A stretch of DNA of 24,316 bases. Source: a virus. Of this stretch, positions 1,988-21,111 are shown piece by piece. How positions within the stretch are numbered: position 1 is the first letter of the stretch; each line of letters starts with the position of its first letter. Under the pieces are notes generated by a model. It did not search any database. It had not been told where the DNA came from and saw only the letters and a program-made list of their open reading frames with translations. The stretch covers positions 1-24,316 of IMG/VR virus record IMGVR_UViG_3300041809_001097. One strand, given 5' to 3'. The translations under genes were made by a program, and so were the position numbers.

Positions 1988-2200
1988 TCACACCCTGCGT
2001 CGTAGTTCCTTGCGGTTTGCTGGGATTACCTTTTCGCCAACACAAATAAAACAAGTCTCCCACGTACCAGAAAAACTCATGTACTGATCCCCTTCCTTAA
2101 TAACCTCTCCCACTCTTAGGAAGCGATACTTGGGCTTGACCTCAATTGCTTTTAGCTCAGGGATTCCGTTCTTGCCGTGTGTCTGCTTTAGTGTGTTCAT
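1988..2200 (-). CDS. Single GD-repeat protein, unknown function
   Basis: A 70-residue protein with one GD-repeat: KYRFLRVGEVIKEGDQY, then GTWE, ending in ELRRRV. The ATG overlaps the TGA of the upstream phosphatase gene as ATGA, which suggests translational coupling. It also has its own promoter inside the end of that gene (TTGACA at 2230-2235, TAAGAT at 2208-2213, 16-bp spacer), with only seven bases between the -10 and the ATG. It could therefore be made both from the operon mRNA and from a leaderless transcript. Function is unknown. Confidence 0.75.
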   Translation of the reverse strand: MNTLKQTHGKNGIPELKAIEVKPKYRFLRVGEVIKEGDQYMSFSGTWETCFICVGEKVIPANRKELRRRV

Positions 2201-3036
2201 GGTTTATATCTTACTCCCCTTTTCAAATTTGTCAAGTTTTCAAACAGCTTAGACTTTACTTCTACAAAATACGAATCGCCCCTACAAGGCTTTACCCAGG
2301 CTCTCAGAACCCCTCCAAAGGAGCAACCCCCGTCGATTCCAATGCAATTATTTTTGACAAAAGGAGTTTCGTGTACAGAGTGGCCAAACACAACCGTCCA
2401 ATGGCCATCCCAGAAATCGTACCAAGGATAAGACAGTTCCGGCACGTGCCAAATTCCATCTATTTCGATAGACTTTACAGGAGTGAGTCGGTTAGTTTTT
2501 TCGTTTCTGATAAAATACCTGTTCCTGATGAATTGTTTTGGGTCTTGGTTAAACAAAGAAGGAGATATCCCAGCATGAACGCAAACCACATCATAGGGCT
2601 CAACTGTCCCTTCCTTAGAGAAAAAGACAGCGTGTGGGGCTTGGGCTAGAAACTCCAAACTTGACTCACTAAGTTGCAAGTAAGATTCGGGCAGCTTCAT
2701 TGGTACTTTGTACTTAGGATTTTCTTTGGCCTTTAGCTGGTGGTAATGGTAGCGAATGGGGCGTTCATCATGATTCGATGCAACATTATATATATTTAGT
2801 TCTGGCGTCAAATTATGGATAAACCGTATAACACCCTCAGAATCAGGCCCTCGATCCACCAAATCTCCAAGGAATACAACCGTGTCCTGTATGGTAGGGT
2901 TGATTTTACTCCACAACTCTTTTAGCTCTTCTAGGCAACCATGCACATCTCCAATGGCTACGATTCTTCCTGTGGGGAAGGGTAACTTAAGGACTTGTAC
3001 GGTTTTAGCCGGTTGGAAGAGTTGGGTGTGGGGCAT
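2197..3036 (-). CDS. Calcineurin-like (PPP/ApaH-PrpE type) phosphatase
   Basis: A 279-residue metal-dependent phosphoesterase. The whole PPP signature is visible: GDVHGC (29-34), GDLVDRGPDS (57-66), SNHDE (87-91, where most relatives have GNHE), VHAGISP (153-159), FGHS (217-220) and IDGGCSFGGVLRA (234-246). These supply the two-metal site and the GH histidine. Known relatives remove phosphate from proteins, dinucleoside tetraphosphates or RNA ends; which applies here cannot be told. The start at 3036 is supported by AAGGA five bases upstream, and it overlaps the upstream gene by 32 bases. The adjacent P-loop kinase in the same unit suggests the pair acts on nucleotide or nucleic-acid phosphates (inference). 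Confidence 0.9.
   Translation of the reverse strand: MPHTQLFQPAKTVQVLKLPFPTGRIVAIGDVHGCLEELKELWSKINPTIQDTVVFLGDLVDRGPDSEGVIRFIHNLTPELNIYNVASNHDERPIRYHYHQLKAKENPKYKVPMKLPESYLQLSESSLEFLAQAPHAVFFSKEGTVEPYDVVCVHAGISPSLFNQDPKQFIRNRYFIRNEKTNRLTPVKSIEIDGIWHVPELSYPWYDFWDGHWTVVFGHSVHETPFVKNNCIGIDGGCSFGGVLRAWVKPCRGDSYFVEVKSKLFENLTNLKRGVRYKP
2208..2235 (-). promoter_or_regulatory. Sigma70-type leftward promoter, leaderless geometry
   Basis: The -35 TTGACA (2230-2235) and -10 TAAGAT (2208-2213) are separated by 16 bp, with seven bases from the -10 to the ATG at 2200. It lies inside the 3' end of the phosphatase gene. The -10 and its spacing to the ATG are identical to those of the promoter at 3820. Confidence 0.75.
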
Positions 3037-3863: not shown

Positions 3864-6110
3864 GTGAGTAATTTATACGTAGCTTGGGACGCTGATCATG
3901 CGGGCCGTCAAATTGGTCAAGCGCGCCTTAATGACCAGCCAGAGGAACTTCGTAGAATATCAAATCTAATAGACTCTGGCAACAAGATTTTCGAAGCTTG
4001 GGCTGTTGAACACGGTGGGTCAATGGTTTCCTGCGGCGGGGACGAAGGGGTGGTAGAAGTAAACCCTAAGGCCCTTCAAGACCTCCCTAAAGTAAAAGAG
4101 AAATACGAAAACCTCCTGCAACTTACTGTCTCTATTGGTATAGGGGTCAAGATGTCAATGGCCTTCGAAGCCCTTATGGCCAGCAAGTTAAGGGGCCGCA
4201 ATAGAATAACGTTTTATGACAAGGAAGTCCAAAAGGAAATAGACCAGGCCAAAACAGGCGAAGATGACGGAAAGAAGAAGATCGTAGATGAATATTTGGC
4301 CAAGCACCAACCGATACATCATACGGGCGAAGGCGGAAGTCAAGAGAGGCAACAGGAGAAATCGTCCAATCCAGAAATTCAAGCCCAGCACTATATTGAC
4401 GAAATGCCCGAAGTACCAGAGGTTCCAGAGGACAAAAGCTTTGAGGACCATTTTAGAGACATTGCGTCAGACCAAGAAAAGAAAGACCAAGCCCTAAAGG
4501 CCTCCAAATCCAAAGATCTTAACGCAATAAAACAAAAAGTAGCTACAGCATTACAAGCCGTCCACAAACAACTTCCTGTACTGGCCCAAATAAAACAAGC
4601 TTCTCCTGATACTTACTCTGCTGTTTTAGGGGTTGTACAAGGATTAATTGCTATGGGCAGGCAATTAAGTGACACAGACCAGCAATTAGCAAAAGCCATT
4701 GGAAGCAACAAAGTGTGGGTCGGTGGTGGTTCCAGAATTCCTGCTATCAATACTCCTGAACGCAAAACCTGGGATAACAACTACAAACAAGCCGTAGCTA
4801 ATTATTTTACTGAAGGCAAGCCGCATTTACTAAAAGAGATTCAAGTTCCTGTAGCTAAATTACTACGTAATCACATGGTAGTTGGGAACGAGCCTAAGAC
4901 CAGACTATATCACAGAATGGTCGCAGCTGGGGATAAAATGCCCCCCATGGTTGTTTCAAAAGAAAGAGGCGGCTACAGGGTTATAGATGGTAACAGACGC
5001 CTAGACGTTGCTCTGGCTAATGGTTTAACTCACGTAGATGCCTTAGTGCCCATGACTAGAAGTGAATTGACTAAAGGGCAAGTGAACATTTATCATAACA
5101 CAAATTTACCCCCTGCTGGTATGTTGGCTACTTCTGAAGGCGGATTGTGTACTTATGATTTGGGAATGGACAAAAGCGATTTGATTTCTGGGGGTGCAGC
5201 TCAAGGAATGTCTCCAGAACAATTTGACCAAGAGCAGCTGGCAATTGGTACTAGCATTGAATTACAAGAGCACACAGACGATGAAGAGCTAGCTCGTGAA
5301 ATTGCAATGGACCATTTGGCCGAGGACCCTGATTACTACAGGGATGAAATCGCAGAAGAGACAGAAGAGAGCAGTGATAAGCCAGAGCCACTAGAAAAAA
5401 TGGCCCTTATTCATAACGACCCTAAAAATCCATTAGTGGTGTATAGGGTCCAGAATGAAAAGGGTGAGGGGCCGTACAGTGGAGAAATATTTGACACAGC
5501 CTTTCAAGCCACTTCAGGTAAGCCCTTTAGTGAAATTCCTGGGCCTATGGTTGATTTTACTTCAAAAGAAAGAGAAAATGAAAGTCCAAGGTGGAGAACA
5601 GGATTAGACCCTGCCTTACGCTTTGCTTTTGAGACTCCACAACATGCGGTTGATTGGTTTGGAGAAAAAGGAATTAAACAGCTAACAGATAAAGGCTACC
5701 CTATCACCCCTGTAAAGGCTAAAAAGGTGTTTAGAGGAAAATCTGGCAAGCAAGTGATGTTTATTCCACATGAGTCAGAAAAGGCACTTCTAATGGCTAA
5801 GTCTGATTGGGATATGTCAGAAGACAAAGAAGAACTAGACCCTTCTGCCCCTGTTCCTAATAATAAGGTATTGAATAAAGACGCAGTACCAGAACATATA
5901 AAGTCAATTAGAGCCCATCATAATTTGGTACCCGGAGAGGTATTAGATAGCCGACATATTGTAGTTAGTACCCCATCGGGTAAGAACGCGGTGCGTGAAG
6001 TTGCTAGCGGTATGGTCAGGGATTTGTCTGACACTGTATCTAATCCTATTGGCCCAGGGCAGGGTAACCCTACTAGTGCTAGGAACAAACCTTCTAGAGG
6101 CGCTAAGTAA
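3864..6110 (+). CDS. Multidomain protein: GGDEF/mCpol-like palm, ParB-like, DUF5661-like and YRV/GPY domains
   Basis: About 748 residues (numbers below count from the TTG at 3858). Residues 6-120 read as a palm of the GGDEF/Cas10/minimal CRISPR polymerase class: a strand then DADHAG (D11, D13), SCGGDEG (58-64), LTVSIGIG (89-96) and KLRGRNRITFY (110-120). Residues 325-400 resemble a ParB N-domain: a PPMVV strand, YRVIDGNRRLDVA, then HVDALV. Residues 456-497 resemble DUF5661 (EHTDD...REIAMDHLAEDPDYY). Residues 525-640 hold VVYRVQNEKGEGPY, RFAFET and a terminal VMFIPHE; I know this arrangement from small phage ORFs but not its role. Residues 130-215 are charged and probably disordered. GTG 3864 and TTG 3858 are both possible starts. 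Position in the virion block suggests a structural or injected (polyvalent) protein. Catalysis is not proven. Confidence 0.7.
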   Translation: MSNLYVAWDADHAGRQIGQARLNDQPEELRRISNLIDSGNKIFEAWAVEHGGSMVSCGGDEGVVEVNPKALQDLPKVKEKYENLLQLTVSIGIGVKMSMAFEALMASKLRGRNRITFYDKEVQKEIDQAKTGEDDGKKKIVDEYLAKHQPIHHTGEGGSQERQQEKSSNPEIQAQHYIDEMPEVPEVPEDKSFEDHFRDIASDQEKKDQALKASKSKDLNAIKQKVATALQAVHKQLPVLAQIKQASPDTYSAVLGVVQGLIAMGRQLSDTDQQLAKAIGSNKVWVGGGSRIPAINTPERKTWDNNYKQAVANYFTEGKPHLLKEIQVPVAKLLRNHMVVGNEPKTRLYHRMVAAGDKMPPMVVSKERGGYRVIDGNRRLDVALANGLTHVDALVPMTRSELTKGQVNIYHNTNLPPAGMLATSEGGLCTYDLGMDKSDLISGGAAQGMSPEQFDQEQLAIGTSIELQEHTDDEELAREIAMDHLAEDPDYYRDEIAEETEESSDKPEPLEKMALIHNDPKNPLVVYRVQNEKGEGPYSGEIFDTAFQATSGKPFSEIPGPMVDFTSKERENESPRWRTGLDPALRFAFETPQHAVDWFGEKGIKQLTDKGYPITPVKAKKVFRGKSGKQVMFIPHESEKALLMAKSDWDMSEDKEELDPSAPVPNNKVLNKDAVPEHIKSIRAHHNLVPGEVLDSRHIVVSTPSGKNAVREVASGMVRDLSDTVSNPIGPGQGNPTSARNKPSRGAK

Positions 6111-7156
6111 TGGGTCTAGATAGTCTTTCCCCACAAGATCGGCCGTTAAATGCGCAAGCGATATTGCCGGCCGTTCAGGGGGTGTTTCAGTCTGATATTT
6201 TGATTAGACAGGCCCTAATCATTGGATTCAACGACTTGCGTCAAAATCCGTGGCAGTTACAATTAGTCTTTAACGGATTGCGTTATGACAATTTCACTAA
6301 AGAACAGTACGGCGAAAAGGAAATAACTAAAGCTGTCAATTGGTTTTTGAAGACAGAAATCCCGGTGGTTATGGACTACAATTTAACTAGCAGTCCTGCA
6401 ATGCCTATAGTCGTAGTTTCATTGGATAGTTGTACAGAGGCTGAGGCAACATTAGGGGACCTCCATTACGAAACTGAAGAATCAACTCCAGCAGAATGGC
6501 AACCTCTGACGCAAAAGTTCGTAGGCAATTACAATGCTACCACAGGGGTGTTGATTCCAAGCATTCCAGTAATAGTCAATACCCAAATGGTGTTGGTTGA
6601 TGGTGCTGGGAATAGGTACCCGATTCTAGACCTTTTCACAGATCCAATTACAAGTAACTGTTATCCTATAATACAAAAGGGCCTCAACACTGATTTTAAC
6701 AATTGTGTTTTGGAATGGGCCTCTAGCAAACTGTCTGTGCAACTGGAATCCTGCAACTTCAAGGAGACTTACAACATAATCTGCAATGCTAAGGGAGAGG
6801 CCTCGGAACTATTGTATTTGTGGTCTATTGTAATGTATTCTTTGATGCGGTACAAGAAAACCTTGTTGGAAGGGCGCGGTTTTGAACGTACAGTCATTTC
6901 ATCCACTAAGGTAATGACTAACAACTCTTTGGCTCCTGTGGGGTCGGAGAACGTGTGGAGTCGCGTCATTAGTATCACTGGCTTTAACAAGATGACCTGG
7001 GCACGCACTGTATCAGACAAAATTACCCAAGCTTCTTTTGGCCCAGACAGCTTGAACGTGAGTCAAATCAATTTTCTGCCCAATCAATTTGAAACTGATT
7101 CTAGCTTGATTGACCCTGGATTCCTGACTGGTGACGGAATAGGAGTATCTGTGTAA
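6110..7156 (+). CDS. Conserved virion-like protein, unknown function
   Basis: A 348-residue protein starting in a TAATG overlap with the gene before it, with AGAGG upstream. The N-terminal third is helical (LIRQALIIGFNDLRQNPW, then YGEKEITKAVNWFLKTEIPVVM). The middle contains repeated short strands with CTEAEATLGDLHYETEE and FVGNYNATTGVLIPS, as expected of a beta-rich virion component. A central helix (EASELLYLWSIVMYSLMRYK) precedes a second strand-rich part. No enzyme motif is visible. Being between the large multidomain gene and the sheath, a neck, tail-terminator or connector role is possible but only inferred. Confidence 0.7.
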   Translation: MGLDSLSPQDRPLNAQAILPAVQGVFQSDILIRQALIIGFNDLRQNPWQLQLVFNGLRYDNFTKEQYGEKEITKAVNWFLKTEIPVVMDYNLTSSPAMPIVVVSLDSCTEAEATLGDLHYETEESTPAEWQPLTQKFVGNYNATTGVLIPSIPVIVNTQMVLVDGAGNRYPILDLFTDPITSNCYPIIQKGLNTDFNNCVLEWASSKLSVQLESCNFKETYNIICNAKGEASELLYLWSIVMYSLMRYKKTLLEGRGFERTVISSTKVMTNNSLAPVGSENVWSRVISITGFNKMTWARTVSDKITQASFGPDSLNVSQINFLPNQFETDSSLIDPGFLTGDGIGVSV

Positions 7157-7463: not shown

Positions 7464-9020
7464 ATGCAAGTAAAAGACTTCAACCTCCAGTTAGCTAAGG
7501 CCATTAAAGACGGTATTGCTAAATCCCAAGCGGTTATTGCAAAACATAACGCAAAAGAACAAAACGGTCTGGCTAAGCTAAATAAAACACTTGGCCAAAA
7601 CGACCCTGCTCTTACTGGAGCTGGTGGTGAATTGAGCGCTGGAAGTGCCATGACCGGGGTGCCTAATTTAGCTAGAAATGAATACAAGCCAAAGATAGGA
7701 CGTGGAGAAGACAAGGGAATTAGTTGGAGGAATCTTTTTTTGCTATATCCCTCTTCATTGGCTGCCAAGAAAAACAACACTAGAGCAGAATACGAAGCTC
7801 AAAAGATTGAAAAGGGCGTACTTCCTGAGGGTGGTGGACCAGGGGTGCCAGGTGGTATTTCAGATATGAACAACAATGCAGACGCTGGGTTTGGGGCTTC
7901 TGAAAAGAAAATGTCTAAGGGCGAATTGGATGGAGATGTAGGTTCTTGTAGTATGTGTATGGGACCACTACACGCTTTAGGCACGTTAGGCAATTTGCTG
8001 CATGTCGTCTGCCGTAATTGTGGGACCATGTCTTCAGTTAGTCAACCCAGAGAAGAAAACACTGAAGCCAAGGAAAGCGAAGCGGTTGATCCGACTGTTT
8101 CAAAGGCCGAGCTAGCTAAAGTGTGCCCTCCTGGGGAAAAGAAGCTCACTGATAAGCTAAAGGACGAATACGGTCATTCTGGCGCGGGTGAAGGTAAAGC
8201 TATTGCCACTGCCTGGAAGATTCACGACAAGAAGGTAGAAAAGGGCGAGTCCTGTGCTTCTACCCCAATGAAAAAGGAAGAGATTTCTAATACAGGCAAA
8301 GAAGTCCCCATGACCAATACTATAGCCCCTGAAAAGGTAAAGGGAGCCAAGACTGGTACTGAAACTATCCCAGATGCGATTAAGACAGATGGGTCTGGAG
8401 ATATTACCAAAGGCAAGGTTGCAAAAGGGGCCTTGGTAGAACACGTTAAGAATGCCGCCAAGAAAGCTGGAGTGCCTGTAAAGGATGTTCTAGGCTATAA
8501 GGTGCCAAAAACTCTACAAACAGTTTCCCCTCCACACAATCCTAATTTCAATAAGGGGGCACTAGATGGCGGCGTAGCTAGGGAGCCTGCAATTAAAACT
8601 GGTCGCCCTGTAATCCCTGGGAAGTTTCCTCCTAAAATTGGTGGCGGTGTTCAAACTCAAGTAGCCGCTGTCAAAAAGCCTCTCATCCCAATGGTAAATA
8701 CTGGAGTTGTGGCTAAGGCAGAAAAACATCCTTGCACCTGCTGGCACTGCAAGAGTTGGCCAGGGGGCGCGTCCACTCCATCTGTATATGCAGAAGCTAA
8801 GACAGGACATAAAAAGCCGTTTAGTACAAAAGCAGCTAAGGCGTTTGTCCATAAAGAGCGCAATGACAAAAGAGCAGAATACGAGGCTTCCAAAGTAGAA
8901 AAAGCCGAATCCCCAGCAGCCAAGCCAATTGCTAAATCGCCCGCTTCTGGTTCTGCTGCTAAAGTATCTGCACCAAAAATGCCCACAACCAACATGGCCC
9001 CAAAGGCACCAAAACTATAA
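7464..9020 (+). CDS. Lys/Ala-rich virion-associated protein with zinc-ribbon cysteines
   Basis: A 518-residue, mostly low-complexity Lys, Ala, Gly and Pro-rich protein, probably largely disordered. C162-x2-C165 and C183-x2-C186 form a likely zinc ribbon; a second Cys/His cluster, HPCTCWHCKSW, lies at about 422-432. Residues 228-257 (KLKDEYGHSGAGEGKAIATA then WKIHDKK) resemble a short EYG...A.ATAWK helix common in phage head and scaffold proteins. A 12-residue motif occurs twice (RAEYEAQKIEKG at 107, RAEYEASKVEKA at 470). It has an AAAAGG ribosome site and a late-type motif upstream. It sits directly before the sheath gene, so a scaffold, internal or DNA-associated virion role is plausible but not shown. 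Confidence 0.7.
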   Translation: MQVKDFNLQLAKAIKDGIAKSQAVIAKHNAKEQNGLAKLNKTLGQNDPALTGAGGELSAGSAMTGVPNLARNEYKPKIGRGEDKGISWRNLFLLYPSSLAAKKNNTRAEYEAQKIEKGVLPEGGGPGVPGGISDMNNNADAGFGASEKKMSKGELDGDVGSCSMCMGPLHALGTLGNLLHVVCRNCGTMSSVSQPREENTEAKESEAVDPTVSKAELAKVCPPGEKKLTDKLKDEYGHSGAGEGKAIATAWKIHDKKVEKGESCASTPMKKEEISNTGKEVPMTNTIAPEKVKGAKTGTETIPDAIKTDGSGDITKGKVAKGALVEHVKNAAKKAGVPVKDVLGYKVPKTLQTVSPPHNPNFNKGALDGGVAREPAIKTGRPVIPGKFPPKIGGGVQTQVAAVKKPLIPMVNTGVVAKAEKHPCTCWHCKSWPGGASTPSVYAEAKTGHKKPFSTKAAKAFVHKERNDKRAEYEASKVEKAESPAAKPIAKSPASGSAAKVSAPKMPTTNMAPKAPKL

Positions 9021-9051: not shown

Positions 9052-11583
9052 ATGTCTTTATCATACACTACAACTGACGGCCAGACCCTAATTGTTCCTG
9101 GTGCATACGCTGAAGCCCAAGTCGTTTCAACTCCTTCTACTCTAGCCGCCAACGGTATTCTAATGGTAATTGGCGAAGCTAACTCTGGTCCCGATTTCAC
9201 CCTTGAGTCTGACCTAAGCAAGAACACCTTTGGCCCAGACCAACAGTCAGACATTATCGCCAAGTATGGTTCGGGTAGATTGGTAGACGCTTTCGTAGGT
9301 GCTGTATCTGCCTCTAATGACAACAACATCATGGGCAGCTTTACTTCTTTTGTGCCTGTAAAGACCAACGTATCAGTACAGGCTTCTGGGACTCTTACAA
9401 ACTTCCTTAGCGGCGTGTATTCAAATGTGGTTGCAATTGCCGGAGGCGCTAATGGCAACCTAATCACTACTACTGTTACCTCTCCTCAAGGTGAACTGTC
9501 TCCTTCTACCGGGAGTTTTATTCTAGCCTCTCCCCAAGTTGCCACTACCGTTTCTGCAGTTGTCAATGGTGGCGCAGTTGTAACGTCTAGCAGCATGAGC
9601 GCCGGGGCTACTCCAGCTACTCTAGTCACAGACTTAAGTCCCCTAACCGGCGTAACTGTTACAGGCGGTGCTGCAAGAGGCCTTCTAAATAGCACTGTGG
9701 CAATTACCCTTGGCAATGTTAATGGATACCAAGCCACTTTTACAATTACCACCGCTGCTACTAACTGGCACGTAGCTCCTTCTGTTGGAGATATCCTTTA
9801 TATTGGGTCTGGTTCTGGCTTTACTTCTGGTGGCCATGCTGGAAACGCTGGTACCTATGTTGTCCAAGCTGTTTCAAGCAATACACTGACTGCTCTGAAG
9901 GTAATTGATATTTCTGGTACTGGTGTAACAAGAACTGCTCCTGTGGGGGTTTCTGATGCTTCTACTACAAGCTCAGATATTGAGGCCTATTTGCCAGTTA
10001 ATATCAGTGTTACAAATACAGCAGTTGTTCCTGGACTTGGTAAATCGCTAGAGCTTGCTAACACTTCTACTGGTTCTTTTGCCAATTTGTGCTGGACTTA
10101 CAACACTTCAACACAGACTCTTGCTCAAGCCACTTTCGTTTCTGTTAGTGGTACCCCAGTAGTAATTGTTTCTTCTGAGGAATACCAAGTAGACTTAAAC
10201 GTAGTACTGCAAAAGACAGGGGTATCGGAAAACTGGACCGCTGGTGGAGGCCCTGTTCTTTCTATTGGATATCAAGGGACCACTGCGCAAGCTGTCATTT
10301 CCAATGGCGTCATGACAGTCACTCTTTCGGGTGGTAGTTCTGCCGCACTGTCTCCAATTGTAGTCACCCTAAGCAACTACCCCACTATCGGAGACCTTTG
10401 CCAATACTTTAGTTCCCTAGGTGGTTTTACTGCTGCTCCTACATTGGCTACTTACTCACAGCTAAGCTCAACCTACCTAGACCCAGGCACTTTCAATATC
10501 AATACTGTTTGGGGTGCCCAGACTGGTAGAATCAAGACCGATGGCTACGATTTCCTTACTACTGTAAATGGTGGCTCTACACTAGTTAATCTAGTTCCTA
10601 CTGGCACTCAGACTGCTCTAATCGGATTGCCCAATATTTCTTCACTAGCTTTCTTGTCTGGTGGCTCAAAGGGCTTCACTACTAACGCCATTATTCAAAA
10701 CGCTCTAAACGCTCTACAAGCTGTCAAAGGCAATCTGTTGGTTCCTTTGTTCTCTAATGACGCTACAGTTGATATTGCAGCTGGATTCACAGACCCCAAT
10801 TCAACTTATACCATTGCGTCAATCAATACAGCTGTAAGGGCACACGTATTGCAAATGTCTCAGCTAAAGAGACACCGTCGTAGAATTGCTATACTGTCTA
10901 ATTATGACACTTTCGCAAACAACCAGAACAATGCGGCAAATATTGCTTCATCGCGTTGCTGCATGACCTTCCAGTCAGTCCAAGACAATAACGCTCAAGG
11001 CACACTTACTACCTTTAGGCCCTGGATGACCGCTATTAAAGCTGCTGCAATGCAAGCCGCAGGCGTCTACAAGGATATCACCTGGAAATACACCACAGTT
11101 TCTAGCGCTACTGTTCCACTTGGCGGGTTCAATTACAATATAGAATCTAACTTGGAATCTGCTCTAGGAGCCGGTCTATTGCCTCTATTTTATGATGGTA
11201 GTGGCTGGTCTTGGGTATCTGACCAAACTACTTACAGCGTTGACAACAACTTTGTTTATAACTCACTACAAGCTATGTACTGCTTGGATATGATTATGAA
11301 TGCTCTGGAGCAAAGGATGTCCAGAGCTTTCGTAGGACAATCATTAGCAGATGTTTCGGCCACTACAGCCGTTACGGTGTTCAAGGCCATTTGTGATGAT
11401 TTGATTACCCAGAAGTTGATTGCTCCTAGTGATGATGCTCCAAGAGGGGTCAAGAACATTGTAATCAAGATTGTAAACGGGAATGCAATGGTGGTAGGAG
11501 CAGAAGTAAAAGAAGCTACGAGTTTGAAGTTTGTGGCAATTCAATTGCTTGTATCCGCGATCCAACAAACAGCTACGGGTTAA
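9052..11583 (+). CDS. Contractile tail sheath protein
   Basis: An 843-residue sheath subunit, which surrounds the tail tube and contracts at infection. The N-terminus (LIVPGAYAEAQVV, then a GEANSGPD loop and KYGSGRLVDAF) and the C-terminal part (RRRIAILSNYDTF, an FRPW segment followed by AAAMQAAGVY, then PRGVKNIVIKIVNGNAMVV and an Ala/Val-rich end) fit the known sheath architecture. It is longer than typical sheaths (T4 gp18 is 659 residues). The excess lies in a Ser/Thr/Gly-rich, strand-forming insert at roughly residues 110-440, likely a surface domain. It has a GGAGAG ribosome site. The tube gene follows after 19 bases, the usual order. Confidence 0.92.
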   Translation: MSLSYTTTDGQTLIVPGAYAEAQVVSTPSTLAANGILMVIGEANSGPDFTLESDLSKNTFGPDQQSDIIAKYGSGRLVDAFVGAVSASNDNNIMGSFTSFVPVKTNVSVQASGTLTNFLSGVYSNVVAIAGGANGNLITTTVTSPQGELSPSTGSFILASPQVATTVSAVVNGGAVVTSSSMSAGATPATLVTDLSPLTGVTVTGGAARGLLNSTVAITLGNVNGYQATFTITTAATNWHVAPSVGDILYIGSGSGFTSGGHAGNAGTYVVQAVSSNTLTALKVIDISGTGVTRTAPVGVSDASTTSSDIEAYLPVNISVTNTAVVPGLGKSLELANTSTGSFANLCWTYNTSTQTLAQATFVSVSGTPVVIVSSEEYQVDLNVVLQKTGVSENWTAGGGPVLSIGYQGTTAQAVISNGVMTVTLSGGSSAALSPIVVTLSNYPTIGDLCQYFSSLGGFTAAPTLATYSQLSSTYLDPGTFNINTVWGAQTGRIKTDGYDFLTTVNGGSTLVNLVPTGTQTALIGLPNISSLAFLSGGSKGFTTNAIIQNALNALQAVKGNLLVPLFSNDATVDIAAGFTDPNSTYTIASINTAVRAHVLQMSQLKRHRRRIAILSNYDTFANNQNNAANIASSRCCMTFQSVQDNNAQGTLTTFRPWMTAIKAAAMQAAGVYKDITWKYTTVSSATVPLGGFNYNIESNLESALGAGLLPLFYDGSGWSWVSDQTTYSVDNNFVYNSLQAMYCLDMIMNALEQRMSRAFVGQSLADVSATTAVTVFKAICDDLITQKLIAPSDDAPRGVKNIVIKIVNGNAMVVGAEVKEATSLKFVAIQLLVSAIQQTATG

Positions 11584-11602: not shown

Positions 11603-12076
11603 ATGCCAGCATTAGTATTAAGTGGTGCAAGAGCGAAACTGGGTGTCTATGATGGCACTTCGGTTGACTACATTGGAATCTTTAGCGACTGTAGCTATGG
11701 GGTAACCTATGATGTACAGCCAGCCTGGATTTTAGGGCGTTACAGTGCGGCTAGCTTGGATTATACTGCTCAAGAAGTAGTACACGTGACTGCTAATGGT
11801 TTCCGCATTGTGTCACACGGGTGGTTCGCGGACGCACGTTTCCCTACATTGGCAGACCTGATGACAGCAAACTATATGACCTTGTCTGTACTCGATAGAC
11901 AAACCAACGTTGAAGTAGCTCGCATCGACTTCGTTCGGCCTGTAGGGGCAACTGGCGGTTTCAGTGCTAGACAGCTATCCACAAGCCAGCATAGCTATCA
12001 AGGAATTCTAGTTTCAGATGAGAGCGCAACTGACAATACAGAAGCTCCTGGCGCTATGAGCCTACCGACTGGGTAA
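11603..12076 (+). CDS. Tail tube protein
   Basis: A 157-residue protein of the size expected for a myovirus tube subunit (T4 gp19 is 163 residues), directly downstream of the sheath and preceded by AAAGGA. The sequence is almost all short beta strands: ARAKLGVYDG, SYGVTYDVQP, VHVTANGFRIVSHGWF, EVARIDFVRPVG and a flexible Ser/Thr-rich tail. The assignment rests mainly on gene order, size and strand pattern, as no single signature motif is diagnostic. It is the last gene of the rightward virion block and is followed by a terminator. Confidence 0.82.
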   Translation: MPALVLSGARAKLGVYDGTSVDYIGIFSDCSYGVTYDVQPAWILGRYSAASLDYTAQEVVHVTANGFRIVSHGWFADARFPTLADLMTANYMTLSVLDRQTNVEVARIDFVRPVGATGGFSARQLSTSQHSYQGILVSDESATDNTEAPGAMSLPTG

Positions 12077-12131: not shown

Positions 12132-12656
12132 TTACTCCATAGCCCTTCCAAATCCCCAGCCCGCCATACTGACGTACTTCGTCAATTCAGGCGGGTCACA
12201 GGTGGCTAGCATTGTTGTAGGCAGTCCCACATCTTTTACTTTTGCCAGCATTTCCGCAAACGTAGCTAGCCCATTCTTTTCAAACTCAAACACTACAGGG
12301 CTTCCAAACTTTTTTAACGTATTAAGCCAACAATTAGGCAAGCGAGGCACTACAGGAATTTCAGGGTGCCGTTTTAAACTCCTTAGTTGCCTGTGAGTTA
12401 ATGTAGGTATAAAATTAGGGTCTAACCGTAATTCTATTGCTTTCCTGAATTCCTCCACATCCATGTTGCCTTTACACCTATTACAATCGTAGCAGGCAGA
12501 ACGCAGATTATAATACCCATCCTTGCCACCTTTTGCAATTGGCTTGATGTGGTCAATAGTAAGCTTGTTTGGCCCTGGTGCTGTACCGCAATAACAACAT
12601 TTCCCTCCAGACTTAGCGTGGACCTTTTGTTTTCCTAAAGACTTAAGTGAGGACAT
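12132..12656 (-). CDS. HNH endonuclease
   Basis: A 174-residue nuclease starting at the internal ATG at 12656 (MSSLKSLGKQKV), seven bases after a -10. The longer frame would run through the divergent promoter region. The HNH core is clear: GGKCCYCG (C20, C23), TIDHIKPIAKGG (DH at 35-36), N50, and CYDCNRCKG (C55, C58, N59). The zinc-knuckle cysteines and catalytic His are intact. A roughly 100-residue C-terminal part with Pro-rich and FEFEKNGLATF segments has no function I recognise and may recognise DNA or a partner. It is a free-standing single gene on its own promoter, as is common for mobile HNH genes in phages. Confidence 0.88.
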   Translation of the reverse strand: MSSLKSLGKQKVHAKSGGKCCYCGTAPGPNKLTIDHIKPIAKGGKDGYYNLRSACYDCNRCKGNMDVEEFRKAIELRLDPNFIPTLTHRQLRSLKRHPEIPVVPRLPNCWLNTLKKFGSPVVFEFEKNGLATFAEMLAKVKDVGLPTTMLATCDPPELTKYVSMAGWGFGRAME

Positions 12657-12663
12657 GTTCTTT

Positions 12664-12691
12664 ATGGTAACATGTTTTAATCGTTTGTCAA
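12664..12691 (-). promoter_or_regulatory. Sigma70-type leftward promoter of the HNH gene
   Basis: TTGACA (12686-12691), 16-bp spacer, TACCAT (12664-12669), seven bases to the ATG at 12656. No ribosome site is evident, so a leaderless mRNA is predicted. Confidence 0.7.
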
Positions 12692-12706
12692 GTAATATTT
12701 TAGGGC

Positions 12707-12734
12707 TTGACTTTTTGCGTTTTGGGAGTATACT
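12707..12734 (+). promoter_or_regulatory. Sigma70-type rightward promoter, leaderless geometry
   Basis: TTGACT (12707-12712), 16-bp spacer, TATACT (12729-12734), seven bases to the ATG at 12742. It is back to back with the HNH promoter and is the only rightward member of this promoter class that I found. Confidence 0.75.
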
Positions 12735-12741
12735 ATACCCT

Positions 12742-13350
12742 ATGTTCAAAACTAGTCCCTTAGCTCGTTTTCGTCGTTGGCTAGAGCACTGGCATATCTG
12801 GCCATTTAAGTATATTAGCACGGCTGTTTATTGGCTAAGAACGCACACCTACAACAAATATCACCTGGTAGATTGCCGCAACAAAAGGAATGGTTATGAG
12901 TGGGGCTACACCGATATTTCCGAAAAGGTGCTGCTAGCTAATATGGCCCTTTTGAATTATTTCATTGACAAAGAGAAGGGTCTTAATTGCCATGTAGATT
13001 GGAGGTCAGCAGAAGAGCACCAAAAGGCTGGGGAAGAGGTAGATGAAGGGAGTGCGCACATTTACGACGATCATGCTAAGGCTGCCCAGGAAATGCGAGC
13101 CATATACCATTGGTGGAATGTTGAGCGTAAGCAAGAACATGACGCATACGACAAAGCTTTAGAAGAGGCCTACCCAGACCCATTTAAATTCGCACCTTCT
13201 GCTACACATCCTGGAATGTTTGAGCTGAAGAATTCTCATATCTCTAAGGAATTGCACCAGAAGTTGTGGGATATGGAAAAGGCTTTGGATGACAAAGACG
13301 AAGAAATGCTTATTCGTTTTATCAAAATCCGGGGCTACCTCTGGACCTAG
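12742..13350 (+). CDS. Conserved phage protein, W-rich, unknown function
   Basis: A 202-residue protein. The start at 12742 (MFKTSPLARF) follows the promoter -10 by seven bases; the longer frame from 12655 would cover both promoters. It contains a YHLVDCRNKRNGYEWGYTDI segment, a helix VLLANMALLNYFIDKEKG, a charged middle, and a C-terminal signature DDKDEEMLIRFIKIRGYLWT. From memory, this arrangement (short aromatic N-part, L.HA.F..LV.FVE-type helix, EM.IRLIK.R..LW end) recurs in unrelated phage genomes as a protein of unknown function. No catalytic motif is visible. Confidence 0.8.
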   Translation: MFKTSPLARFRRWLEHWHIWPFKYISTAVYWLRTHTYNKYHLVDCRNKRNGYEWGYTDISEKVLLANMALLNYFIDKEKGLNCHVDWRSAEEHQKAGEEVDEGSAHIYDDHAKAAQEMRAIYHWWNVERKQEHDAYDKALEEAYPDPFKFAPSATHPGMFELKNSHISKELHQKLWDMEKALDDKDEEMLIRFIKIRGYLWT

Positions 13351-13439: not shown

Positions 13440-13880
13440 ATGAAGACAAAGAAGATTCCGTATTTATGCCCAGTGTGTCAAGGGAAGCCCCTACCGACAG
13501 AAACCAAGGAAGACTATGTGGAATTGAAGGCAGGGGATGTTCTTCAATGGGGAGACGAATACCTTACGACAACGGAGGCAATCCGAAATGATGAAGGGGA
13601 GTGGTACAAAACAGGTCGTGTAGGAGTGGCTGTGAGAGAGAAAGACCATTGTTACCGCCGCAAAACCGTAACTGTTAAACCAACTACATGTAAGGCCTGT
13701 GATGGTAAGGGAATCGTTTGGGGCGAGGAAAGGGATGACTCTATTCCTTTTACAGTTGCTCCAACGGCTCCAGCAACTCCCGATTATCCACTTGGCCCTT
13801 ATACCTATCCTACGATGGCCGCACCAATCGCCTGGTATCAAAATACCTGTAGCACCGATTGCCCTAATTTCGGTTTTTAA
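13440..13880 (+). CDS. GD-repeat inserted between two CxxCxG zinc knuckles
   Basis: A 146-residue protein with a GGGAAG ribosome site. An N-terminal YLCPVCQGKPL and a later CKACDGKGIVWG are DnaJ-like CxxCxG knuckles that would together bind one zinc. In the phage proteins I recall, these two knuckles are close together. Here one GD-repeat unit (YVELKAGDVLQWGDEYL, GEW, CYRRKT) lies between them. The Pro-rich C-terminus (PTAPATPDYPLGPYTYP) is probably disordered. The role is unknown; the knuckle pairing suggests binding to nucleic acid or protein. Confidence 0.75.
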   Translation: MKTKKIPYLCPVCQGKPLPTETKEDYVELKAGDVLQWGDEYLTTTEAIRNDEGEWYKTGRVGVAVREKDHCYRRKTVTVKPTTCKACDGKGIVWGEERDDSIPFTVAPTAPATPDYPLGPYTYPTMAAPIAWYQNTCSTDCPNFGF

Positions 13881-16257: not shown

Positions 16258-16947
16258 ATGGATGAGAACCAAAAGGTATCGCAGACTTTAGCACTGATTA
16301 AGCAGTTCTGTCCCAACTACAAAATAGTTCTCAAGAGCCAGTCTACTGTAAACAAGGTCATTGGGTGGATTTTAAGCAAGGTAGGCAATAGTGGGTATAT
16401 GTCGGATTTCTTTACCACCCTGGGCCAAACCACCTATGTTCCAACCTGTTGCGAAAGTGCTTATATTCCTGGTATGTGGCAGATTTTGATGCATGAGGGC
16501 CAACACGCCCAAGACGCTGCTAAAATCGGGAACGTAACGTTTGGGGTACTTTACTTGCTTCCTCAATTGATTGGTGTATTGGGTATTGTTTACGCTATTG
16601 TTATGGGGATTCTGTTGCTGTGTGGAGGCCCTTTGTCTTTGCTGTGGGGTTTGTTAGCTTTAGTTTGTTTAGCTCCTATTCCAGCATTTGGCAGGGCTTA
16701 TTTGGAAGTTCGGGGATACACAGTTACTTTGGCTTCTATGTATTGGAGTGGGACTTACAATTCAAGCGTGATACCCTGGATTGTAGGGAACTTTACGGGA
16801 GGCGCTTATTACTGGATGTGGCCGTTTGCGTCATGGACTACCAGTTATTTTAACACAAAGCTCCAAGAACTGCAAAACGGTACTTTCGTGCTGACTCCTT
16901 ATTTGGCTGCTTGCAAGACCTTGTCGAAGCAGATTAATTCTCTTTAG
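16258..16947 (+). CDS. Membrane HExxH zinc-metallopeptidase-like protein
   Basis: A 229-residue protein with an AGGAG site. HEGQH at 79-83 followed by AQD fits the HExxH zinc site, and E150 in RAYLEVRGYT, just after the membrane segments, is a candidate third ligand. Two long hydrophobic stretches (about 94-120 and 124-142) lie between these, and a further aromatic-rich region follows. The active site would therefore sit at the membrane face. I recall similar HE..H..D membrane proteins from other phages without a known substrate. Candidate jobs are processing of a membrane or envelope protein during lysis or takeover. The stop overlaps the convergent gene by four bases. Confidence 0.65.
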   Translation: MDENQKVSQTLALIKQFCPNYKIVLKSQSTVNKVIGWILSKVGNSGYMSDFFTTLGQTTYVPTCCESAYIPGMWQILMHEGQHAQDAAKIGNVTFGVLYLLPQLIGVLGIVYAIVMGILLLCGGPLSLLWGLLALVCLAPIPAFGRAYLEVRGYTVTLASMYWSGTYNSSVIPWIVGNFTGGAYYWMWPFASWTTSYFNTKLQELQNGTFVLTPYLAACKTLSKQINSL

Positions 16948-17918
16948 AGCTTAATCGCTGTTACTTGAGGTTCTGGTGCGCCCTCTTCCCAGGAGACAAT
17001 ATGCGCATGCGGCGTAATTCCCTTGTTCCCATCATCGGTCCAGCCACCAGTGTTGATTACCTTGAATTTGTCTCCATAGCTAGAGGTAACTTCAGTGTGG
17101 CCTCCGTAATGGTCGTGCCCTAGAAAGAGGTAGTTTGGGACTGTGAACGACGGCTCTTCTACTCCATAGCTTTCTACCATCATGTCTATGAACCACAGTA
17201 AATTGTGTCCGTTTTGAGCTTGGAATGGTTCTGTGTCTGGAGTTAGTTGACAGTGTAATCTAGGATCGTCTTTTCTTAACAGGTCCCATTCTACTTCTCG
17301 GATTCTGGAATTAGGAGCCCACATCTTAGCCACAAATTCGTCTGTAGCTTCTGTAATATAGTCGAGACTGTTGTCTTTCTTTAAATTGATATTTGGCCTG
17401 GGTGGCATTTCTATTAGTTCCAGGGCGTCATATTCCACTTTGCTCTTTTGGCCAATAATCAAATCGTCTAGGAAGTGACCGTGGTGGAAGTAACAGTTAC
17501 TAAACGCATAAACGGGGAAGTGCAGGTAGGTGTAGTTAGGTGGAGGCACTCCTAGAATAGCAAGAGACATAGAAAGTGGAGAGCTGTTTTCCGTCTTAAT
17601 TAAATCTCTCCAATAGGCATAGTCGTGATTCCCAGGTACGATGTGGAGGTCTCTTATCTTTACGCGGCTAGTCAGTATTTTGAAAAAGCTCTGGCAAGTC
17701 TGCAACGTAAAAGGAGAAATCATATCATCCCCAATTAGCTCGGCATCCTTAGGAATACATCCTTCGAAGAAGTCCCCGTTTAGAATTAGCTTGTACACTT
17801 CTCCACCCGATACCTGTGCAATTTGGCTTGCTAAGTAGTCTTGGGCTTCTGGGGTGTTTAGCTTGGATCTATCGTATCCTAAATGGGTGTCAGAAAGTAC
17901 TATGAAATTGGATGGCAC
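16944..17918 (-). CDS. Calcineurin-like metallophosphoesterase
   Basis: A 324-residue enzyme with the full two-metal motif set: SDTHLG (9-14), NGDFFEG (47-53), PGNHD (95-99), HHGH (145-148) and GHDH (267-270). A roughly 110-residue stretch between the last two motifs is longer than in minimal family members. The start is GTG at 17918, chosen for AAGGA five bases upstream and for the strand that follows directly (NFIVLSDTH). It overlaps the end of the nucleotidyltransferase gene by 19 bases, so the two are translated together. The substrate is unknown; with an RlaP-type partner, a nucleic-acid 3' or 2',3'-phosphate is a reasonable guess. Confidence 0.9.
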   Translation of the reverse strand: MPSNFIVLSDTHLGYDRSKLNTPEAQDYLASQIAQVSGGEVYKLILNGDFFEGCIPKDAELIGDDMISPFTLQTCQSFFKILTSRVKIRDLHIVPGNHDYAYWRDLIKTENSSPLSMSLAILGVPPPNYTYLHFPVYAFSNCYFHHGHFLDDLIIGQKSKVEYDALELIEMPPRPNINLKKDNSLDYITEATDEFVAKMWAPNSRIREVEWDLLRKDDPRLHCQLTPDTEPFQAQNGHNLLWFIDMMVESYGVEEPSFTVPNYLFLGHDHYGGHTEVTSSYGDKFKVINTGGWTDDGNKGITPHAHIVSWEEGAPEPQVTAIKL

Positions 17919-18931
17919 TCTATTCCTTCTTTTATAATTGATTGAACAACTTCATTGATTACGTTTAGGTTTGGTCTTGCTGGTAGTGTAGTTTCCTTCA
18001 GGGCGAGTTGAATCAAAGAATCTACGTCACTAGCCCAGGCCTCAATTTTCTCGAATGGCCAGCTACCTTGACGGATTTCTAATAGTTCCTGGGCGTCGTG
18101 GCGTTTGATTTCTAGTGTGCCAGTTTTTAGACACTCCAGGCATTCTCTATACAATCTAACTAAGTGCATCAAATGCTTCGCGTCATAGCCACACTTTTCT
18201 TCTAGTGCCCGACGCTTAGGGTTCCTGCTCTTGGCCCAATTGTTGTAGGCTTCTTGTTCGGCTCTTAGAGCCGCATATCGCTTTTCTTTGTGTAACAGCT
18301 CAACAAAGTTGGTGTCAAATCCCAATCCCTTAGCAACTTCTCCATACATCTCTAATTGTTGGGTTTTGTCAATAGACCAATCACCAGCAATAGAGTCAAG
18401 AGATTTCTGAACAGAAGCATCAGCGGCGTGTAGCTTGGGAATTAGACTTCTAGCAGGCAATCCAAATTCCTCCCTGGTAGGAATGGATTTATGAGGGGTA
18501 AGTAAATAGGCGCGGTGCGTTCTTATACGGTGCAATTGACTCCGTGCGTAACCAGCGAATGTAGCTGCAATCCTCTTAGACAGGAACATCGACCTTATAG
18601 CCTTCAGCTTACCCCATGCTGGAGTAGTATAAACAATAGAGCTGTCGTCAACAAACAGCAATTCCAGAATGTTAGGATTGTTCTTGACCGCTAAATCAGC
18701 AAACTTCAAAATACTGTAAATTTCAACATCCTGCGGAGCATCACAGCGAGCCTGTTCAAATCTTTCTAAAAACCCAAACACAACACTTGGCGGTAATGTA
18801 CAAACCCCTCGAAAATCCTCATCCGAATCGGGTAAGTTTGTGCCGTAAGCATGACTGCCAGCCCTTGTCAAGAAAATGACATGGTCTTTTAGCCATTTAG
18901 GGTTGTTGGGAATTTGAACGATATCAGGCAT
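17900..18931 (-). CDS. RlaP-like Pol-beta superfamily nucleotidyltransferase
   Basis: A 343-residue protein. GSHAYGTNLPDSDEDFRGV (25-43) is the hallmark of the PF10127/COG3541 family, with D37 and D39 as metal ligands and VEIYSI at about 69-74 giving the third acidic residue. NNPNILELLF (84-93) and the helical C-terminal domain also fit. The family is known as RNA-ligase-associated nucleotidyltransferases, linked by genome context to RNA repair; no ligase is in this window. It has a good AGGAG ribosome site and a TATAAT about 40 bases upstream. It is followed by a metallophosphoesterase in an overlapping arrangement. Confidence 0.88.
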   Translation of the reverse strand: MPDIVQIPNNPKWLKDHVIFLTRAGSHAYGTNLPDSDEDFRGVCTLPPSVVFGFLERFEQARCDAPQDVEIYSILKFADLAVKNNPNILELLFVDDSSIVYTTPAWGKLKAIRSMFLSKRIAATFAGYARSQLHRIRTHRAYLLTPHKSIPTREEFGLPARSLIPKLHAADASVQKSLDSIAGDWSIDKTQQLEMYGEVAKGLGFDTNFVELLHKEKRYAALRAEQEAYNNWAKSRNPKRRALEEKCGYDAKHLMHLVRLYRECLECLKTGTLEIKRHDAQELLEIRQGSWPFEKIEAWASDVDSLIQLALKETTLPARPNLNVINEVVQSIIKEGIECHPIS

Positions 18932-19283: not shown

Positions 19284-19598
19284 CTAGAAAGGTACTTCAC
19301 CACGTTGCACTGCTCCATAAAAATCTTTGTTGAGTGCTCCGTCTCTGGAGTTGCAATTATGACACAGCAAGTCCAATTGGCCATTCTCGTAATCTTCCTC
19401 GTACCTCTTCATTCTCATTTTAGGGCTTAGCTTTCGGGCCTCATAGTCTTTACCATTTGGGTGGTCTAATTCTAGTTCTTCTGTACTACCGCACATCCTA
19501 CACTTGCCACCCAATTTAATAACAAGGAATGCCCTACGTACCTGGAGCCTAGCCTTTAACTTGAGCCACTCTTTATGGTAATTACGGTTGCGAGGCAT
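19284..19598 (-). CDS. HNH-type nuclease-like small protein
   Basis: A 104-residue protein. GGKCRMCGS (C33, C36), LELDHPNGKDY (DH at 45-46), and LLCHNCNSRDG (C79, C82, N83) give the HNH frame with its zinc knuckle, much as in small bacterial and phage HNH proteins. The N-terminus is strongly basic. It lies ten bases behind a promoter -10 with no clear ribosome site. The core shows no close similarity to the HNH gene at 12132, so it is probably an independent acquisition. Whether it is catalytically active is not certain because the second catalytic residue is not obvious. Confidence 0.78.
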   Translation of the reverse strand: MPRNRNYHKEWLKLKARLQVRRAFLVIKLGGKCRMCGSTEELELDHPNGKDYEARKLSPKMRMKRYEEDYENGQLDLLCHNCNSRDGALNKDFYGAVQRGEVPF

Positions 19599-19672: not shown

Positions 19673-19978
19673 ATGGTCATTCCTGGCGATGAGGTTTCAT
19701 ATAAAAACGTAGTAGGCAAATGGGGCAACAAAGTCCTGTGGGCTATTGGAACAGTTGGAGGCCTTAACCTAATTGAAGCAAGGTCTCCTGGTGGCTCTAG
19801 AGAAATTTTAGGGGCTGGCTCCCATCGCGCAGTAGCCAGACATATTGCTAAAAGGGCCCACCCAGACATTGAATTTACCTTCCTGGAAAAGAGCCAAGAC
19901 GTCGACCCCAGGGACTTCCAGGATATCCTACCTTTTTGGGAGCAAGTTACTATTAGAGCCCAGCAAAAAATTAGCTAA
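19673..19978 (+). CDS. Virion-like hypothetical protein (101 aa)
   Basis: It begins after a GGAAAGTGAG ribosome region. The N-terminal strand pattern is IPGDEVSYKN; SREILGAGSHRAVARHIAKR then HPDIEFTFLEKS is the most distinctive part. There are no enzyme motifs. It ends in a TAATG overlap with the 274-residue gene, so the two are probably made together and may assemble in the same structure. Family not identified. Confidence 0.6.
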   Translation: MVIPGDEVSYKNVVGKWGNKVLWAIGTVGGLNLIEARSPGGSREILGAGSHRAVARHIAKRAHPDIEFTFLEKSQDVDPRDFQDILPFWEQVTIRAQQKIS

Positions 19979-20802
19979 TGGACAGATTCCCCCAAAACCG
20001 TATTCAGCCAATTGAATTCCCTACCGCTACCAGTGTAACCTTTGACTTACAAGGATTTTTGGATGGTATTAGGGCTCATGGGTTACGCTTCATTCATTTT
20101 AGAGCAATGCGCGACCCTTCTGGAATCGTTGACAAATACGACTCCAGAAAGCCTAATCCCCAGAATCCTAGAGCAATTAACGGAATGCATTATAGCAGGG
20201 GTGGTTTGGTAACGGCATTATGTTTAGGCAATACCAAGGAAACCAAGGCTTCCGATGCAGGAGTAGTTGATTCCAGTACGGCTCAGTTTACTCCTTTATT
20301 GCATTACGAAGACACAAACAAAAGGGTGTTTTTGGCTCCTTACGATAGATTGATTTTAGATGACGAAGCTGCGTTGGTGTCTAGGCATGAATTGGTAGAA
20401 AGCTCTCCTACAGGTATAGACCGGCCTAAATTCCCTGCTGTTGAAATCTTGGATTGTGTAGACGCCAGGGGAGTTGCATACCACCAGAACGAAGATTTTG
20501 ACTTAACGCAGGATGGATTGATTATTTGGAAGGATAGAAGGCCTGGACAGGATGTGGATTCGGGTAAAGGAGTGGTTTACTCAATACGTTATGTTTATAG
20601 GCCCTGTTGGTATGTGGTTAGACTAATCCATGAAATTAGAGCCATCCAGCAAGAAGATTATATGACTGGCAAGCGTTATATGGCCCAGGCCCCCCAAAGT
20701 GCTCTAGTACAAAGAGAATACGTGTTTGAAAGTGAAGCTGCCGATAGTGGTACTAGATTAGCCGCAGAAGGGCCAGCTAGCGGCCAAATCACGGCTAGCT
20801 AA
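19978..20802 (+). CDS. Conserved virion structural protein, possibly connector or neck
   Basis: A 274-residue protein. Diagnostic stretches are HGLRFIHFRAMRDPSGIVDK, VYSIRYVYRPCWYVVRLIHE followed by IRA, and QSALVQREYVFES. I recall this combination from uncharacterised virion proteins of other large phages; no search was run. It is strand-rich, with an R-P-x-W-Y-V-V aromatic patch. A role in the head-tail connector or neck is a guess from its type, not shown. The start is a TAATG overlap, and its last eight bases overlap the convergent GD-repeat gene. Confidence 0.65.
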   Translation: MDRFPQNRIQPIEFPTATSVTFDLQGFLDGIRAHGLRFIHFRAMRDPSGIVDKYDSRKPNPQNPRAINGMHYSRGGLVTALCLGNTKETKASDAGVVDSSTAQFTPLLHYEDTNKRVFLAPYDRLILDDEAALVSRHELVESSPTGIDRPKFPAVEILDCVDARGVAYHQNEDFDLTQDGLIIWKDRRPGQDVDSGKGVVYSIRYVYRPCWYVVRLIHEIRAIQQEDYMTGKRYMAQAPQSALVQREYVFESEAADSGTRLAAEGPASGQITAS

Positions 20803-21025
20803 TTAGTCGGCGATAGCGAGGGAAGTACTTGTTCTTTTGAGTCTTAACTTTGATATTGGAAGTGGCTGGATTGATTTTAAACCACCCTCTAGTAGACCTG
20901 TCGTAAGCTTGGTCTCCTGCTTGAAGCACATCGTCATCGCCTAGAATCCTGTATTGCTTCTTGGGCTCTACGATTTCTTTTGTTTGATAAATGCGTTCAA
21001 CTCCGTTGTATCCTTGTTCAGCCAT
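20795..21025 (-). CDS. Single GD-repeat protein, unknown function
   Basis: A 76-residue protein from the ATG at 21025, which has AAAGGA five bases upstream. The longer frame would run back across the promoter and the divergent gene. One repeat: YRILGDDDVLQAGDQAYD, GWFKI, and RYRRLIS at the very end. The 25-residue N-terminal part (MAEQGYNGVERIYQ) is charged. It differs from the other leftward genes in having a leader with a good ribosome site. Confidence 0.78.
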   Translation of the reverse strand: MAEQGYNGVERIYQTKEIVEPKKQYRILGDDDVLQAGDQAYDRSTRGWFKINPATSNIKVKTQKNKYFPRYRRLIS

Positions 21026-21050
21026 TTGTGTCCTTTCGGTTGATTTCTGA

Positions 21051-21078
21051 ATAATAGCATAGTTTAAAATTTTGTCAA
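21051..21078 (-). promoter_or_regulatory. Sigma70-type leftward promoter
   Basis: TTGACA (21073-21078), 16-bp spacer, TATTAT (21051-21056), then a 25-base stretch with AAAGGA before the ATG at 21025. The -35 overlaps the rightward motif at 21076. Confidence 0.8.
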
Positions 21079-21088
21079 CAACAATCTT
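21076..21088 (+). promoter_or_regulatory. CAACAACAATCTT motif, candidate late promoter
   Basis: A full match within TGTCAACAACAATCTT, 23 bases before the ATG at 21112, which has a GAAGGAAG ribosome site. Confidence 0.55.
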
Positions 21089-21111
21089 TGGAATAGCAGG
21101 AGTGAAGGAAG

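Follow-up and report, generated by a model that had tools for sequence, protein, structure and literature searches.

Palm domains of the mCpol type (minimal CRISPR polymerase) have a fold used by bacteria for antiviral alarm nucleotides, and in 2025 mCpol was shown to guard bacteria against the counter-defences of phages. What, then, is such a palm doing in a long gene among the structural genes of a phage, and could it still work as an enzyme there?

The palm gene and its setting

The DNA analysed here (the window) is a linear IMG/VR fragment of 24,316 bases with myophage structural genes aboard; its phage setting is certain, since sheath, tube and baseplate genes are present. The palm gene is a single open frame of 748-750 aa, running from TTG 3858 or GTG 3864 to the TAA at 6110. 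Residue numbers are counted from the TTG throughout, and the palm alignment favours the GTG start. The features of the region, with their counterparts in Myxococcus phage Mx1, are:

3864..6110, plus strand: palm gene, whole, from the GTG start (TTG 3858 also possible); the alignment to relatives begins at the GTG
6108..6112, plus strand: TAATG, palm-gene stop overlapping the neck-gene start; Mx1 has the same one-base overlap with its next gene
6110..7156, plus strand: neck/connector-type gene, 348 aa, the syntenic partner; 33% identity to the Mx1 gene in the same place
7464..9020, plus strand: 518-aa gene in the neck-sheath interval, conserved in close relatives
9052..11583, plus strand: tail sheath, 37% identity to the Mx1 tail sheath
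11603..12076, plus strand: probable tail tube, so judged because it follows the sheath; homologous to the Mx1 gene at the corresponding position
19978..20802, plus strand: phrog_1004 virion structural protein, displaced in the window; in most relatives it immediately precedes the palm gene

In the window, the palm gene is followed by the neck gene, and its neighbours on the opposite strand encode an AAA kinase and a metallophosphoesterase; no Panoptes-type effector (2TM-beta or 2TM-CARF/SAVED) adjoins it there. The structural block also holds a confirmed calcineurin-like phosphoesterase (2197-3036, minus strand) and, likewise on the minus strand, a phrog_388 nucleotidyltransferase (17900-18931), and the minus-strand ORF at 16944-17918 looks by eye like a second calcineurin-like phosphoesterase. 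Furthermore, a short motif of the YRxLxxGExIxxGDE type is repeated in the ORFs at 1707-2063, 1988-2200, 13440-13880, 20795-21178 and 23442-24302, and the ORFs at 12132-12821 and 19284-19598 have HNH-endonuclease-like cysteine/histidine patterns, possibly those of homing endonucleases.

Identity and active site of the palm

A preliminary description of the window had read D11/D13, GGDEG at residues 60-64, VSIGIG and GRNRI as marks of a GGDEF/mCpol/Cas10-like palm. All of these motifs are present in frame (TTG numbering), and Pfam, sequence matches to OptS and the AlphaFold2 fold place the domain with the mCpol/Cas10 kind.

3870..4223, plus strand: mCpol-type palm, residues 5-122; PF18182 above cut-off, OptS by sequence and fold, AlphaFold2 pLDDT 97
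3888..3890, plus strand: D11, aligned with catalytic Asp6 of KpOptS; present in 12 of 12 intact members
4035..4049, plus strand: GGDEG, residues 60-64; D62 aligned with catalytic Asp57 of KpOptS

The Pfam mCpol family (PF18182) matches residues 7-120 over its whole profile (1-114 of 114) with 45.9 bits against a cut-off of 26.4 (E 8.5e-12), followed in rank by the Cas10 palm (PF22335, E 0.019). The NCBIfam mCpol model (NF033576) gives 34.7 bits, under its stricter cut-off of 40, so the window palm is filed as a divergent relative and not as a standard member. PF00990 (GGDEF) has no match in the window protein at E values up to 10 and the motif is GGDEG, not GG(D/E)EF; the assignment to GGDEF proteins was therefore rejected. 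The nearest solved structures by sequence are the Panoptes OptS cyclases (phmmer E 5e-9; family profile E 4e-15). The structure prediction that had been proposed as a check on residues 1-130 gave palm topology, the AlphaFold2 model of residues 3-132, built from 14 aligned sequences, having a mean pLDDT of 97. OptS was its top Foldseek match and its best fold match in VIA-align (Z 17.5, 1.8 A over 120 residues), ahead of the best polymerase palm (Z 13.2) and the best GGDEF palm (Z 12.9). An uncharacterised phage protein from the structure database, A0A6J5L1I5, has a nearly identical palm fold (TM 0.92). We regard the mCpol type of the window palm as practically certain.

The phage palm has in common with OptS/mCpol of Panoptes (PMC12657218, PMC12657230; PDB 9mnr, 9pd0, 9nwn) the full-length palm fold, the two catalytic aspartates, DxDxxGR and the conserved lysine region. 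It differs in lying in a neck block, in being fused to a long multi-domain C-terminus, in having GGDEG where OptS has AADG, and in carrying Asp in place of the adenine-contacting Asn34; moreover, it has no adjacent 2TM-beta, CARF or SAVED effector and falls in a separate clade. With the Cas10/Cmr2 palm2 domain (PF22335) it has the superfamily fold and a GGDD-type motif in common, and the palms of the distant relatives L058 and L060 pass the Pfam cut-off of that family, whereas the window match is weaker, HD, zinc and CRISPR partners are lacking and the clade is again separate.

The preliminary description had also worried that EG in place of EF might alter or abolish catalysis. The F is a feature of the GGDEF family. 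At the position of GGDEG, the alignment has GGDD or AADG in bacterial mCpols and Cas10 palms, and AADG does not prevent OptS from being active as a cyclase (PMC12657218); the change should thus do no damage, and the proposal that it kills activity was rejected as unsupported. The metals of Klebsiella OptS are bound by Asp6 and Asp57, and synthesis is lost when either residue is replaced by Asn (PMC12657218). In the window palm, the two metal-binding aspartates are retained, as are the conserved lysine and E63, the second acidic residue, and by its sequence the palm is likely to be catalytically competent. Asn34 of KpOptS, which contacts the adenine N6, aligns with Asp39 of the window palm in an alignment read by eye, so that base choice and product may differ from those of OptS.

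Descent of the phage palms

A palm tree was built from 40 sequences, comprising 20 phage palms, 11 bacterial mCpols and 9 Cas10-like palms. In it, each of the three sets forms one group; out of 200 bootstrap trees, 96% recover the phage branch (support 92/93). With a short domain and long branches, the tree does not settle the order among the three groups. In this short-domain tree, the window palm lies outside the bacterial mCpol clade, the bacterial mCpols forming a group of their own. PF18182 hits of 22-36 bits in bacterial genomes were rejected as mCpols, since they look Cas10-like (GGDD, with sequence around it unlike that of mCpols) and have their own group in the tree; they served only as outgroup. 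The phage branch does not stem from a recent Panoptes capture, and a phage-captured Panoptes operon was rejected as an explanation on the lack of an effector, the separate clade and the ancient synteny.

A lineage-wide gene beside the neck genes

The sole palm relative in the phage collection is Mx1 WNM70340.1, annotated as hypothetical. This 468-aa orthologue is 28% identical to the window protein over the first 270 residues and has the same gene order; it differs in that its catalytic residues are replaced by S and A and the middle modules are absent. The Mx1 sheath, tube and neck genes are homologues of the window genes and follow in the same order. Scans of viral contigs with the whole protein and with two sequences, and a first scan of genome contigs, found no relatives, and the lineage was reached through its sheath and tube genes, with which viral-contig scans yielded 31 distinct contigs, the window left out. 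A family-profile search found the palm gene in 14 of 32 whole records; among sheath-group records it is present in every one above 30 kb, save those with the sheath at the contig edge. Scans with the palm motif brought in more members, among them a distant group (L058-L060) as well as L063. All ten members scanned pass the Pfam mCpol cut-off, and the core palm family has no PHROGs entry. Palm matches in E. coli and Klebsiella phages (E 0.6-6, in phosphoheptose isomerase genes) were discarded as noise.

The preliminary description had called for a survey of the gene neighbourhood of homologues, and this places the palm gene in the virion block across the lineage. Where the block is covered, the usual order on one strand is phrog_1004 virion protein, palm protein, gp10-like protein, neck and sheath. 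The exceptions are the window itself, where phrog_1004 lies at another place and a gp10-like gene was not recognised, and L063, where phrog_1004 is downstream. The order is retained at sheath identities near 33%, and the connector-block location holds for all members examined, including the distant L058-L060. On gene position alone, we lean modestly towards the window palm protein being associated with the virion. In the open-access literature that was searched, we found no paper that joins mCpol with phage genomes or describes the phage palm protein.

Exchangeable modules behind the palm

Behind the palm, the window protein carries the following segments:

4500..4700, plus strand: conserved helical segment, residues 215-281, common to the family including Mx1
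4710..5069, plus strand: ParB/Srx-like module (IDGNRR), residues 285-404; also in the Mx1 1479-aa polyvalent protein and in the large protein of L054
5217..5342, plus strand: DUF5661 (PF18905), residues 454-495; 32.1 bits against a cut-off of 27
5430..5783, plus strand: phrog_1106 module (YRV...GEGPY), residues 525-642; E 2e-11
5883..6107, plus strand: family-specific C-terminal tail, residues 676-750; the tail profile matches only the palm family among the collected loci

The DUF5661-like domain and the YRV...GEGPY block named in the preliminary description were both borne out, the former by its PF18905 score and the latter as the phrog_1106 module. Its ParB N-domain stood in part: Pfam ParB_N scores 13.2 bits on the window module, under its cut-off of 26.3 (E 0.093), and a profile of four ParB-like sequences has six matches in the PDB, all to ParB/Spo0J chains (best E 0.005), which lends some support, at the level of sequence profiles, to a ParB/Srx-like identity of residues 285-404. 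Residues 525-642 have ADP-ribosyltransferase (ART)-like matches with best Z values of 2.4-2.5 (ParT, TreTu, Tpt1) in a low-confidence model; the model of the C-terminal half was made from four sequences (pLDDT 43) and is not used here to argue for a ParB or an ART fold.

Throughout the main group, the palm, the helical segment and the C-terminal tail are present, and the modules between them vary. L053 has the full module set of the window, L010 is without the ParB-like and phrog_1106 modules and keeps an intact palm, the ParB-like module is absent from most relatives, and the middle of L057 holds GNAT acetyltransferase domains. The palm protein of L063 (L063:8711-11503) consists of NUDIX, palm, TPR and a SAM-lyase/DUF3293-like end, and SAM-lyase-like segments related to it occur in the gene before the sheath in many relatives. 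In Mx1, the same gene block as that of the palm orthologue encodes a polyvalent protein of 1479 aa (L002:5439-9878; annotated NUDIX hydrolase) with ART-PolyVal, NUDIX, GNAT and ParB-like domains, and the gene next to it has HipA/PI3-kinase-like matches. The window protein likewise joins several domains that are unrelated to one another in a single chain, its gene lying with the late virion genes, and across the lineage these domains are exchangeable within the virion gene block, in agreement with the earlier suggestion of a polyvalent protein. Phage polyvalent proteins with GGDEF domains, encoded near virion genes, were described by Iyer et al. in 2017 (PMC5512222), whose text does not mention mCpol. 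The likeness extends to the cyclase-type palm, the multi-domain build, the location near virion genes and the company of ParB, ART, GNAT and NUDIX domains in the window's lineage; the difference is that the palm described here is of the mCpol type and belongs to a lineage-wide core gene rather than to a sporadic fusion.

These modules bear on whether the palm might be an NTP-binding switch or a template-free polymerase that controls assembly, packaging or the ParB-like module and makes no diffusible signal. ParB/Srx domains of polyvalent proteins are proposed to be NTP-regulated nucleases (PMC5512222) and Y-family polymerase palms are similar in fold (Z about 13), both of which favour such a role, but OptS stands well above every polymerase palm and the palm is intact in L010 and most relatives although the ParB-like module is missing. 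We consider this explanation improbable.

Intact and decayed palms

The preliminary description had held that homologues without the acidic residues throughout would reduce the palm to a relic of the fold. By this measure the outcome is mixed: the catalytic set is intact in 12 distinct phage palms and lost in seven (Mx1, L036, L045, L047, L046, L048 and L050), and L042 has lost half of it, the first aspartate being absent. The 12 intact palms are on average 43% identical (range 31-89%), yet none of them departs from D11, D13, G16, any residue of GGDEG or K110; distinct intact lineages are 31-58% identical, and most other columns change. The dead lineages differ in what replaces D11 (S, Q, H, A, K). 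Since L053-L063 were collected by motif patterns, only the set recruited through the sheath is unbiased; in it, the palms of the window, L010, L014, L016 and L027 are intact, seven are lost and one is half-lost. In the sheath tree, intact members belong in part to the distant group and in part to the window's group, and lie on either side of dead ones; the intact state is thus likely to be ancestral, with at least two changes, and the site has been lost repeatedly in sister lineages.

Seven relatives keep the gene without the catalytic residues, and catalysis is therefore not its sole role. The decayed pair L045/L047 has a dN/dS of about 0.12 and the intact pair L014/L016 one of 0.08, DNA-level selection tests being saturated for most pairs; purifying selection on the decayed pair points to a role of the palm beyond catalysis in some lineages. 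Could this role be structural only, the palm having become a domain for binding or assembly in a head-neck protein, with nucleotide synthesis lost or irrelevant even in palms that keep the residues? The persistence of gene and palm fold without catalytic residues in Mx1, L036, L045/L047, L046/L048 and L050, the purifying selection on the dead pair and the fact that the parts common to all members include the tail and the helix speak in its favour, whereas the catalytic motif is invariant at 31-58% identity in intact members, the replacements of D11 are as diverse as expected after release of constraint, and intact members lie on both sides of dead ones. A purely structural role is rather unlikely in our judgement. 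The comparison suggests instead that catalysis is under selection in other lineages and that the palm can persist elsewhere as a bare fold.

A second palm by the head-maturation protease

Mx1 also has a GGDEF protein, WNM70324.1 (OR576727.2 17173-17904), annotated as nucleotide cyclase and encoded between a putative prohead protease and the major capsid protein. A GGDEF protein was found in 9 of 21 lineage records (L109-L117), the motif being GGDEF in six and GGDEI, GGDEM or, for L117, not resolved by the motif scan in the others. In five records this second palm is the C-terminus of a long protein, the upstream part of which matches the Mx1 prohead protease gene. All nine records of at least 120 kb have at least one palm with intact motif: Mx1, G014, G024 and G029 have a GGDEF-type palm and have lost the mCpol site, both palms are intact in G010 and G427, and G429, G430 and G431 have the mCpol alone. 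In the smaller fragments G013, G026 and G028, the palm is decayed, and GGDEF was not found. The complementarity of GGDEF and mCpol site, seen in nine genomes without a statistical test and with exceptions among the smaller fragments, is a lead and not a rule. The second GGDEF palm is possibly as interesting as the mCpol palm itself.

The head location that the fusion to a head protease suggests for this sister enzyme argues against an unpackaged late enzyme, which would give a signal late in infection, e.g. for lysis timing or against superinfecting phages. The position of the palm gene and its stop/start overlap imply co-expression with late genes, as that explanation requires, and position is no proof of packaging; the family-wide C-terminal tail and the fixed place beside the neck genes, however, suggest a physical role, and we hold the late enzyme to be highly improbable.

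Proposed role and implications

The reading that we favour, with about an even chance of being right, is a head/neck-associated polyvalent protein that carries an active nucleotide cyclase, the palm being fold-only in some lineages. For packaging, catalysis, product and target, we infer the following course. The conserved helix and the C-terminal tail would probably dock the protein within the neck or close to it, and its variable middle would, like that of polyvalent proteins, carry interchangeable modules with enzymatic or binding functions. The intact window palm would most likely bind NTPs with Mg2+, and paired palms may join two NTPs into a cyclic dinucleotide, as OptS does. The active site of OptS is built from two protomers (PMC12657218), and ring-like neck assemblies, if they bring the palms together, would meet the same requirement. 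The product would act on host nucleotide-sensing proteins in the cell that is newly infected or producing phage, having entered it or been made there. An action of the palm protein on host nucleotide signalling is a tentative proposal, possible though on balance doubtful. In a still bolder version, which is a long shot, the neck-associated mCpol would provide a cyclic dinucleotide of the phage's own, pre-loaded or made late, that acts as the silencing ligand of Panoptes-type effectors or swamps CBASS-type sensors, other phage factors meanwhile depleting host signals; if true, it would be an anti-immune synthase rather than a sponge.

The palms described here form a phage-owned branch of the mCpol superfamily, located in the head-neck block and with the site intact in many members, which raises the question whether phages make signals too. 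Moreover, intact and decayed palms in syntenic orthologues offer a natural experiment, one of the decayed members, Mx1 (with its separate intact GGDEF), being cultivable. The analysis may also give a function class to a conserved hypothetical gene of large myophages.
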